Source: Mycolicibacterium doricum | GTDB taxonomy: Bacteria; Actinomycetota; Actinomycetes; Mycobacteriales; Mycobacteriaceae | Length of the DNA: 64,000 nucleotides | NCBI RefSeq assembly: GCF_010728155.1 | Contig: NZ_AP022605.1 | Location: 3,348,001-3,412,000 of the forward strand | Direction: 5' to 3' | Shown: in pieces, positions 19,703-22,678 of the stretch | Layout: every line of letters begins with the position of its first letter | Position numbering within the stretch: the stretch's first letter is position 1 | Position numbers and translations under genes: made by a program | The notes under the pieces: model-generated | The model's database searches: none | What the model saw: only the letters and a program-made list of their open reading frames with translations | Told to the model about the DNA's origin: nothing

Positions 19703-22678
19703 CTACGCCTTCTTAGAGGCGGTCTTCTTCGCCACGGTCTTCGTCGCCGCCGTCTTCTTCTTCGCCGCCGGCTTCTTGGCGGCCGCCTTCTTCTTGACCG
19801 GCCCGCGGGCCCGTCGGTCGGCGAGCAATTCGGAGGCGCGCGCGTCGGTGATCGACATGACGTCGTCGCCCTTGCGCAGGCTGGCGTTGATCTCACCGTC
19901 GGTGACATACGGTCCGAAGCGGCCGTCCTTGATCACCATCGGGCTGCCGCTGACCGGGTCGGTGCCGAGCTCCCGCAGCGGCGGCGTCGCCGCGCCCTGC
20001 CGGCCCCGGCGCTTGGGCTCGGAGTAGATCTTGAGAGCCTCGTCGAGGGTGATGGTGAACATCTGCTCCTCGGTGGCCAGCGACCGCGAGTCGGTGCCCC
20101 GCTTGAGGTAGGGGCCATACCGGCCGTTCTGCGCGGTGATCTCCTCACCGGTGTTGGGGTCGACGCCCACCACGCGCGGCAGCGACAGGAGCTTGAGCGC
20201 ATCGTCGAGCGTGACGGTCTCGAGATCCATGGAGCGCAACAGCGAACCCGTGCGCGGTTTGGGTCCCGTGGGTTTCTTGCCCTTCCTCGCCGGCGCCCCG
20301 TCTTCTGGTTCGTCCGGCGGGGCCGGCAGCACCTCGGTGACGTACGGCCCGTACCGGCCGTCCTTGGCGACGATCTCGTGGCCGGTCTCGGGGTCGACAC
20401 CCAGGGATCGGCCCTCCTGCGGTGTGGAGAACAGCTTTTCGGCCAGTTCCAGGGTCAACTCGTCCGGCGTCAGCTCGTCTTTGAGATTGGCGCGCTGGGG
20501 CTTCAACTCACCCGGTTTGTCGTTGTCGGTGACCATCCGCTCGAGATACGGACCGTTCTTGCCGACCCGCACGTAGATCGGACGGCCCTCGGCGTCGTCG
20601 AAGAGCTTGATGGAGTTGACTTCTCGAGCGTCGATCTCCTCGAGGTTGACACCGACCAGCTTCTTGAGACCGCCTGAGCGGGCGATCGAGTCCCCGACGC
20701 CGTGCTCACCGCCGAAGTAGAAGTTCTTGAGCCAGTTGGTCCTTCGCTCGTGACCCGAGGCGATCTCGTCGAGCTCGTCCTCCATCGCGGCGGTGAACCC
20801 GTAATCCACCAGGCGGCCGAAATGCTGTTCGAGCAGACCGATCACCGCAAACGCCACCCACGACGGGACCAGTGCACTGCCCTTCTTGTGGACGTAGCCG
20901 CGGTCCTGGATCGTCTTGATGATCGACGAATACGTCGACGGCCGGCCGATGCCGAGATCCTCGAGCGCCTTGATCAGCGAAGCCTCGGTGTAGCGGGCGG
21001 GCGGGCTGGTCTGGTGACCGGCGGGCGTGAGCTCCTTGGCGTCGACGCGCTGGCCCTGGGTCAGGTTCGGCAGCCGGCTCTCGGCGTCGTCCGCCTCACC
21101 GCCGGCCTGCTCGTCGATGCTCTCGACGTAGGCCTTGAGGAAACCGGCGAATGTGATGGTGCGGCCACTGGCGGAGAACACCACCGACTGGCCGTCGCGG
21201 GAGTCTCCGGCGATCCGCAGCGACAGCGTGGTCCCGCGGGCGTCGGCCATCTGCGAGGCGACGGTACGCTGCCAGATCAGTTCGTAGAGCCGGAATTCGT
21301 CGGTGTCGAGCTGCGCGTGCAGCTGCCCGGGCGTCTGGAACACGTCACCGGCGGGGCGGATCGCCTCGTGCGCCTCCTGCGCGTTCTTGACCTTGCGGGT
21401 GTACTGGCGCGGCGACGGGTGCACGTACTCCTCGCCGTAGAGCTGGCGGGCTTGGTTGCGCGCGGCGTCGATGGCCGACTGCGACAACGTGGTCGAGTCG
21501 GTTCGCATGTAGGTGATGTAGCCGTTCTCGTACAGGCGCTGGGCGATGCTCATCGTGCGTTCCGACGAGAATCGGAGTTTGCGACCGGCCTCCTGCTGCA
21601 GCGTCGAGGTCATGAAAGGTGCATACGGCCTACGCGTGTAGGGCTTCTTTTCGACCGACGCGACCGACAGCTGTGCGCCCTGCAGACCTGCCGCCAACGC
21701 TCCGGCGGCGACCTCGTCGAGGACGAGCACCTCGTCGGGTTTGCGCACCTGACCGAGTGAGTCGAAATCGCGACCCGTGGCAACCCGGCGTCCGTCGACG
21801 CTGTTGAGCTTGGCGGTGAACGTCGGCGGCATGGCCTGCCGATCGGAGACGCTGGCGTCCAACTCGGCGCTCACATCCCAGTAGCCGGCAGTGCGGAACG
21901 CCATGCGCTCGCGTTCACGCTGCACGATGATGCGGGTCGCCACGGACTGCACGCGGCCGGCCGACAGCTTCGGCGCCACCTTCTTCCACAGCACCGGGCT
22001 GACCTCGTAGCCGTAGAGGCGGTCGAGGATCCGGCGGGTCTCCTGTGCATCCACCAGGTCGTTGTCGAGATCGCGAGGGTCATCGGCGGCGGCGCGAATC
22101 GCCGACTCGGTGATCTCGTGGAACACCATCCGCTTGACCGGGATGCGGGGTTTCAGCGTTTCCAGCAGATGCCAGGCGATGGCCTCGCCCTCACGGTCGC
22201 CGTCCGTGGCCAGATAAAGCTCGTCGACGTCCTTGAGCAGGCCTTTCAGCTCGGTGACGGTGCCCTTCTTGTCCGGGCTGACGATGTAGAGCGGTTCGAA
22301 GTCGTGTTCGACGTTGACGCCGAGCCGGGCCCACGGTTCCGACTTGTACTTCGCGGGCACGTCAGCGGCGGCCCTGGGGAGGTCGCGGATGTGTCCGCGC
22401 GACGATTCGACGATGTAGTCGGAGCCCAGATAACCGGCGATTTTGCGGGCCTTCGTCGGTGACTCGACAATGACGAGTCGCCGCACGGCGCCGTTTCCTC
22501 TTCGCGCAAGCGGCTCATCGGCGCCGTTTCCTCTTCGCGCAAGCGGCTCATCGGCGCCGTTTCCTCTTCGCGCAAGCGGCTCATCGGCGCCGTTTCCTCT
22601 TCGCGCAAGCGGCTCATCGCCACCGTTCCCGCTTCTGCGGCTACCGTCAGCCAACTGGATCCTGCTCCAATTCTTCAT
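19703..22678 (-). CDS. topA: DNA topoisomerase I (type IA)
   Basis: Type IA topoisomerase that relaxes negative supercoils through a 5'-phosphotyrosine. The Toprim domain starts RRLVIVESPTKARKIAGYLG and contains LATDGDREGEAIAWHL; the active Tyr is in GYITYMRTDST at about residue 388. The C-terminus has repeated GPYV/GRYGPY domains without zinc cysteines and ends in an AAKK-rich tail, as in mycobacteria. The N-terminus is unusual: from ATG 22678 it has four copies of an 11-residue repeat (NGADEPLARRG) before the Toprim domain, coded by a 33-bp tandem repeat. GTG 22486, with an AGAGGA site 9 bases upstream inside the last repeat, would give a 928-residue protein without the repeats and is equally likely as start. 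Confidence 0.95.
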   Translation of the reverse strand: MKNWSRIQLADGSRRSGNGGDEPLARRGNGADEPLARRGNGADEPLARRGNGADEPLARRGNGAVRRLVIVESPTKARKIAGYLGSDYIVESSRGHIRDLPRAAADVPAKYKSEPWARLGVNVEHDFEPLYIVSPDKKGTVTELKGLLKDVDELYLATDGDREGEAIAWHLLETLKPRIPVKRMVFHEITESAIRAAADDPRDLDNDLVDAQETRRILDRLYGYEVSPVLWKKVAPKLSAGRVQSVATRIIVQRERERMAFRTAGYWDVSAELDASVSDRQAMPPTFTAKLNSVDGRRVATGRDFDSLGQVRKPDEVLVLDEVAAGALAAGLQGAQLSVASVEKKPYTRRPYAPFMTSTLQQEAGRKLRFSSERTMSIAQRLYENGYITYMRTDSTTLSQSAIDAARNQARQLYGEEYVHPSPRQYTRKVKNAQEAHEAIRPAGDVFQTPGQLHAQLDTDEFRLYELIWQRTVASQMADARGTTLSLRIAGDSRDGQSVVFSASGRTITFAGFLKAYVESIDEQAGGEADDAESRLPNLTQGQRVDAKELTPAGHQTSPPARYTEASLIKALEDLGIGRPSTYSSIIKTIQDRGYVHKKGSALVPSWVAFAVIGLLEQHFGRLVDYGFTAAMEDELDEIASGHERRTNWLKNFYFGGEHGVGDSIARSGGLKKLVGVNLEEIDAREVNSIKLFDDAEGRPIYVRVGKNGPYLERMVTDNDKPGELKPQRANLKDELTPDELTLELAEKLFSTPQEGRSLGVDPETGHEIVAKDGRYGPYVTEVLPAPPDEPEDGAPARKGKKPTGPKPRTGSLLRSMDLETVTLDDALKLLSLPRVVGVDPNTGEEITAQNGRYGPYLKRGTDSRSLATEEQMFTITLDEALKIYSEPKRRGRQGAATPPLRELGTDPVSGSPMVIKDGRFGPYVTDGEINASLRKGDDVMSITDARASELLADRRARGPVKKKAAAKKPAAKKKTAATKTVAKKTASKKA
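22487..22618 (-). repeat. 33-bp tandem repeat, four perfect copies, at topA start
   Basis: Four identical 33-bp units (22487-22519, 22520-22552, 22553-22585, 22586-22618). Read on the topA strand, each unit contains an AGAGGA ribosome-site-like sequence followed 9-10 bases later by ATG (in a frame other than topA) except at the last junction, where GTG 22486 begins the topA core. The unit length keeps the topA frame open. Confidence 0.97.

Follow-up and report, generated by a model that had tools for sequence, protein, structure and literature searches.

Four perfect 33-bp units in topA of Mycolicibacterium doricum: probable local expansion of a dispersed mycobacterial repeat

Why should a bacterial gene for type IA DNA topoisomerase I carry four perfect copies of a 33-bp sequence immediately before the part that encodes the enzyme core? 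The window analysed here, a 64,000-nucleotide stretch of the M. doricum genome, holds such an array at 22487-22618, on the strand that encodes topA. A sequence-only reading of this DNA had recognised the four abutting units and proposed that they multiply the topA translation start, extend the protein at its N-terminus and vary in number between strains. Its description of the array is borne out by our own reading of the sequence and by Tandem Repeats Finder, which reports a row at 22486-22635 with period 33 and score 272, the top score of its 17 rows in the window. (Another row, at 41685-41741, is a tandem array of 18 bp x 3.2 with 89% matches.) On the topA strand, all four units read GATGAGCCGCTTGCGCGAAGAGGAAACGGCGCC, and the 21-bp core of the unit gives four matches in the window at up to three mismatches, as compared to a mean of 0.01 in 100 shuffles. 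Each unit carries AGAGGA, followed at 10 nt by an ATG that is not in the topA frame (MSRLREE...); at the last junction the distance from AGAGGA to GTG 22486 is 9 nt. Read from ATG 22678, the topA frame stays open across the array and gives DEPLARRGNGA four times; the NGADEPLARRG given earlier is the same repeat in another register. What had been overlooked is that the topA unit is a member of a dispersed repeat family.

Table 1. Features of the topA locus (window positions).
Feature	Position	Strand	Basis or remark
topA (type IA DNA topoisomerase I), array in N-terminal linker	19703..22654	-	Frame and homologue matches; Pfam of relatives
Most likely topA start codon, TTG (M-ADGSRRSGNGG...)	22652..22654	-	Start motif in 63/63 loci; 983 residues from here
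AGGA, Shine-Dalgarno-like	22660..22663	-	5 nt before TTG 22654
GTG codon, array/core junction	22484..22486	-	Internal start possible but unsupported
ATG chosen by the sequence-only reading and some database entries (MKNWSRIQLADG: P0001, P0014, P0015)	22676..22678	-	
33-bp unit 1, first in topA reading direction	22586..22618	-	GATGAGCCGCTTGCGCGAAGAG + GAAACGGCGCC
33-bp unit 2	22553..22585	-	Identical to unit 1
33-bp unit 3	22520..22552	-	Identical to unit 1
33-bp unit 4	22487..22519	-	Identical to unit 1; GTG 22486 directly after

The window's TopA was assigned through its relatives, for which PF01131 and PF01751 are precomputed; the closest named record among the matches listed is Mycobacterium sp. 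IS-1496, at 92% identity. At least 589 of at least 593 pattern-matched stretches in genome contigs encode a relative (80 were kept), and 195 of 198 genomes of the genus give a match. Four of the genomes (G004, G146, G162 and G184) have seven TopA-like matches each, as compared to one in most.

Where translation of TopA begins decides what the array can do. Our sample comprised 63 distinct mycobacterial topA loci (64 loci, L013-L046 and L093-L122, from which L094 was dropped as a duplicate of L013). In all 63, a script located the motif [LVM][AGV][DEG] together with a start-like codon, from which a short linker leads to RRLVIVESP; the codon is TTG in 35 loci, GTG in 27 and CTG in one. A Shine-Dalgarno-like tetramer lies within -15 to -4 of the motif codon in 49 of the 63 (six shifted control windows gave 1 to 15 of 63), and an in-frame stop occurs within 12 codons upstream in 51. 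By contrast, a start-like codon just before the TopA core is found in 20 of the 63 loci, and a Shine-Dalgarno-like tetramer precedes it in one of these 20, the window alone. The position of ATG 22678 holds no ATG in IS-1496, the nearest named relative. A word search of the open-access literature listed no recognisable paper on the TopA start. Together, the conserved upstream motif, the tetramer in front of it and the upstream stops suggest that TopA most likely starts at TTG 22654, upstream of the array, which would thus most likely lie inside the coding sequence and not multiply TopA starts. The proposal of a multiplied start is not supported on this point, nor by the unit ATGs, which are off the topA frame; the N-terminal extension survives, since the topA frame is open through the array, with TTG 22654 a likelier beginning for it than ATG 22678.

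The linker opened by this start is 57 codons long in the window and 7-26 codons in the other 62 loci. Six of the 63 loci, the window included, have a unit-like stretch in the linker, which in the other five lies at the same place in TopA. Among individual relatives, IS-1496 has no unit, G191 has one and G152 has one in altered form. We also searched public proteins with the 110 N-terminal residues counted from one codon before TTG 22654. Allowing up to two substitutions in DEPLARR, the best 120 of 5143 matches below the E-value limit comprise 89 with no unit, 30 with one and a single protein, P0001, with three. From RRLVIVESP on, P0001 agrees with the window's TopA at each of 926 residues; its units number three, those of the window four. 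P0001 comes from a contig other than the window's, of 227,343 bases, so the difference would reflect either strain variation or a difference between assemblies, such as assembly collapse. Variation in copy number, as anticipated by the sequence-only reading, is thus a possibility to which P0001 lends itself, and collapse in assembly may also account for this protein.

The first 22 bp of the topA unit are the part shared with the dispersed repeat. Searched as RATGAGCCGCTYGCGCGAAGAG with at most one mismatch, the repeat occurs in 101 of 198 Mycobacterium genomes, while the reversed-pattern control gave 0 in every row. Genome G146 has 169 copies at up to two mismatches. In the M. doricum genome, the 21-bp core ATGAGCCGCTTGCGCGAAGAG occurs also in a second array and in four single matches with one or two mismatches. 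An order-wide draw of 298 genomes, at up to two mismatches, returned 32 with matches (18 of 35 within the genus and 14 of 263 outside it), and the reversed control gave one match in each of two genomes. Counts outside the genus were 0 to 3, apart from an incomplete genome that has eight; exact copies outside the genus were confined, in this draw, to a single other family, in which three incomplete genomes have them. Named records led to 29 genomes, of which 12 match at the same threshold, including those of M. hodleri, M. brisbanense, M. aquaticum, M. peregrinum and M. rhodesiae; M. asiaticum and M. longobardus have one match each, and at up to two mismatches none was found in M. nebraskense, M. 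europaeum, M. genavense, M. interjectum, M. palustre, M. gordonae, M. leprae or ten genomes of other genera. Carriage of the family by phages or plasmids was considered and rejected, as the exact core was not found in IMG/VR and a 271-base query containing the second array retrieved nothing from plasmid or phage records. A 17-base core string occurs in no paper of the open-access literature searched, and word searches of that literature (subscription papers and preprints lay outside the scope) yielded no recognisable description of the 33-bp repeat. A "33-bp repeat" in a prophage paper is, in the part of that paper available, an attachment site.

The second array of M. doricum (G000:C1:1360212-1360437; L123:1713-1938) comprises seven 34-bp units with seven exact 21-bp cores, and its neighbours are presumably lepB and rnhB, named from their sequences. 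Its unit forms a ten-codon mini-ORF, MSRLREEPRA, whose stop lies one base before the next ATG. Twelve genomes were compared at this place (G105 and G195 did not align and G027 was ambiguous): G094 and G191 have two imperfect units, G152 has a remnant, and units were not evident in G041, G080, G038, G124 and G081. At the same place, G013 (L232) carries a reversed array of a variant core, GATGAGCGCTCGCGCGAAGAG, with 30-bp spacing. Since relatives have no unit, one unit, two imperfect units or a remnant where M. doricum has four or seven perfect ones, both arrays are probably recent local expansions.

The anatomy of the family is best seen in G146, from which we aligned 117 of the 169 copies, taken from the loci fetched and having up to three mismatches in 21 bases. 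Their consensus is GATGAGCCGCTTGCGCGAAGA followed by G or C and then by about SATCRGRC, with loose positions and with G at +33 in 89 of 117 copies; neighbouring copies are spaced by 33 bp in 20 of 25 pairs. The three forward frames of the core read DEPLARR, MSRLREE or a TGA-containing string and all three reverse frames are stop-free, leaving the core open in five of six frames. Copies keep close to the ends of genes as called by a crude GC-frame script, which also underlies the frame counts below: for 65 of 76 copies, in loci from several genomes, the nearest predicted gene end is no more than 100 nt away, as compared to 26% of random positions in the same loci. These 65 comprise 39 intergenic, 20 N-terminal and 6 C-terminal copies, and the remainder 7 interior and 4 far intergenic ones; 70% of the random positions are interior.

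Among 116 copies in G146, 59 have a same-direction gene ending nearby, whose stop is the unit's own TGA (+2) in 16, an excess that is in part due to the TGA built into the core. A downstream gene in the same direction accompanies 61 copies, and 41 of these 61 genes have an open frame across the unit, which is the DEPLARR frame (that of TopA) in 31 and the MSRLREE frame in 10; the built-in TGA explains why none is open in the third. Start-like codons (ATG, GTG or TTG) in the frame of these 61 downstream genes fall at +33 in 9, on the core's ATG at +1 in 10 and on a TTG at +10 in 10. The four-base stop/start overlap RTGA lies at offset 33 in 14 of 117 copies and at offset 34, the position of the ATGA of a following unit in tandem, in 20, whereas offsets 45-79 average 1.23 each. 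The corresponding numbers for 56 copies of other genomes are 4, 5 and 0.46.

Comparison of closely matching loci revealed units present in one genome and absent from the same place in another. Against G189, G168 and G049, genome G146 shows two clean sites at which exactly 33 bp are absent from all three relatives, both units being in frame and just after a start codon. At the first, the unit follows the second codon of a gene that, from its sequence, we take to encode an ABC-transporter-like protein. At the second, in what looks by sequence like ackA following pta, MSA|VLVLNC becomes MSA[DEQLARRGSGL]VLVLNC with the upstream ATGA overlap kept. A third site, L313:7406/7439, has two units as compared to one in G049; its counterpart in G189 and G168 is ambiguous and we excluded it from the clean sites. 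For L313:629 no counterpart was available, and L321:2200 (up to four mismatches) was dropped, being of equal length in all four genomes. A short stretch of G146, L313:11231-11292, has matches elsewhere in G168 and G189, on both strands, and is perhaps another, palindromic dispersed repeat. In a second pair, G091 and G087, 19 regions were fetched from G091 and the 15 with a G087 counterpart were compared (L193, L194, L205 and L206 were left out). Here 14 of 16 copies are common to both genomes, from which turnover of copies appears to be slow. One of the differences is a clean 32-bp one at what we take by sequence to be the carB/pyrF junction, where the upstream gene takes its stop from the unit and the downstream start has its RTGA at the unit's end; the other (L191) is of about 33 bp and has no clean footprint.

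The flanks of the topA array (AAACGGTAGC versus AAACGGCGCC) and those of the second array resembled a target-site duplication. We rejected this candidate: in 72 single copies of G146, the match between left flank and tail on the 33-nt diagonal exceeds expectation weakly (by a mean of 0.073 per position), in a looser test the observed score was attained by 4 of 200 shuffles, and the two clean 33-bp sites show no consistent duplication. The weak excess may represent decayed earlier units.

How does this family relate to the interspersed repeats already described in mycobacteria? MIRUs have unit lengths of 46-101 bp, whereas the units here measure 33 bp in topA and 34 bp in the second array. Taking GATGCAGAGCGNAGCGATGAGGAGGAGC as the MIRU core pattern, we found matches with up to three mismatches in 97 of 198 genus genomes and 0 in the M. 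doricum genome. According to the part of the source available, MIRUs seem to be mobile; their insertions fall at start codons, and the ORF they contain is coupled to the gene at -4 nt (PMC12548453, citing Supply et al., 1997). The 33-bp family likewise consists of short mycobacterial repeats that occur both dispersed and in tandem and lie at the starts and junctions of genes, its small ORF can end in an RTGA overlap, and it shows presence and absence at orthologous sites (two of 33 bp and one of 32 bp). Insertion at start codons or RTGA overlaps may apply to part of the family, namely the 14 of 117 copies with RTGA at +33, one junction site with an empty counterpart and two sites that follow the start; the topA copies, unlike MIRUs, lie inside an ORF rather than at a gene junction. 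The two families also differ in sequence and in spacing, 33 bp as compared to 46-54 bp in the MIRU-type arrays listed. They seldom meet: with thresholds of one mismatch for the 33-bp family and three for the MIRU-type pattern, at least two copies of both are present in 8 of 198 genomes, of the 33-bp family alone in 70, of the MIRU type alone in 78 and of neither in 42 (Fisher p 3e-15, Spearman -0.62, genomes being counted as independent and kinship left uncorrected). By these comparisons, the 33-bp family seems to work in part like MIRUs and is distinct from them in sequence and length.

Two further kinds of repeat share some of these features. REP elements are marked by palindromic pairs and a partner transposase, whereas the 22-bp core of the 33-bp family shows no palindrome by eye. 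In the part of the source available, REPIN/REP elements are, like the 33-bp family, very short repeats dispersed within genomes (PMC3116915). Coding VNTRs or minisatellites resemble the topA array in its tandem, identical units in the coding frame and in a possible difference of copy number (four versus three), and are unlike it in that the topA unit belongs to a genome-wide dispersed family and did not only arise locally.

We hold it to be highly probable that the topA array is a local, in-frame amplification of the dispersed 33-bp mycobacterial repeat. In an ancestor that M. doricum shared with several relatives, one unit would have arrived in the N-terminal linker of TopA, which is variable and glycine/serine-rich; in M. 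doricum, slippage or unequal recombination would then have multiplied it into four identical units; we infer that units were gained rather than lost. Because the unit is stop-free in the topA frame and 11 codons long, each copy would add DEPLARRGNGA to the tail preceding the TopA core. This tail is probably tolerated with little effect, given that linker lengths between 7 and 26 codons already occur among the other 62 loci. The array would then probably be a shorter, MIRU-like element, locally expanded and tolerated. That the array was instead born in topA by slippage as a plain coding minisatellite, with the dispersed copies unrelated to it, would fit its perfect units and an expansion confined, among the proteins examined, to the window's TopA and P0001. 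This origin is highly improbable in view of the exact 22-bp core at another M. doricum locus, the matches in 101 of 198 genomes against 0 in the control and the single unit-like stretches that five other loci have at this point of TopA; the controls likewise disfavour chance matches as the origin of the dispersed cores.

A regulatory role for the array would give its sequence a different meaning: the Shine-Dalgarno-like AGAGGA before GTG 22486 would yield a short, tail-less TopA, either alongside the long form or in its place, with the ratio tuned by the units. Besides the AGAGGA itself, the in-frame start-like codons at +33 in other genes, of the same order as those at +1 and +10, and the RTGA at +33 speak for such a role, as does the RNA of 22470-22690, which folds more stably than shuffles (z -3.5); stronger folding may be expected of GC-rich repeats. 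Against it, every unit except the last has its ATG off the topA frame, so that more units add no TopA starts; the upstream motif is universal among the 63 loci, while the tetramer before the core codon is peculiar to the window; and a consensus scan of 22400-23500 detected no sigma-70-like promoter. Rfam returned three matches in 22300-23000, every one far under the gathering score. We regard regulation by the array as unlikely. It is also improbable that the assembly misstates the number of units, the true number being, for example, three. P0001, with its identical core, three units and a longest contig of 227,343 bases that is not the window's, would accord with such an error, whereas the M. 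doricum genome is a single contig of 4,029,398 bases and an array of 132 bp should be spannable by ordinary reads.

The local expansion of the dispersed repeat in topA leads to the family itself, in which the chief interest lies: its 33-bp footprints, its preference for gene ends and its near exclusion with MIRUs. A broader proposal is evenly balanced in our judgement, namely that an undescribed family of 33-bp mobile cassettes, which pack an upstream TGA, an ATG and a Shine-Dalgarno-like purine run into 11 codons, stands in for MIRUs across much of the genus, enters near gene starts and junctions as an exact 33-bp unit and rewrites N-termini (TopA, AckA) in frame. MIRUs serve for the typing of tubercle bacilli, and we know of no established mechanism for their movement. 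A second, smaller MIRU-like family that rarely shares genomes with them (8 of 198) offers a handle on what such elements require to spread, with the 33-bp footprint, the core open in five of six frames and the built-in stop, start and purine-rich, ribosome-site-like run as candidate requirements. The topA array and the seven 34-bp units of the second array are candidate loci for length typing in M. doricum, a species without MIRU-type matches. For annotation, N-terminal DEPLARR tails can be repeat insertions.

The other family that yielded exact copies in the order-wide draw has start-codon cassettes of 59-83 bp, some of them in tandem at spacings of 59-83 bp; they were read in eight stretches (L295-L302) from its three incomplete genomes with exact copies and a fourth, likewise incomplete. 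Their 3' part is the same 22-bp core, exact or with one mismatch. Unlike the mycobacterial unit, they have an additional upstream module, ATGAGTGAGCATCGCAG...GAGGAGCG.AGCGA.TG, in seven of the eight stretches; L300 has a different module.
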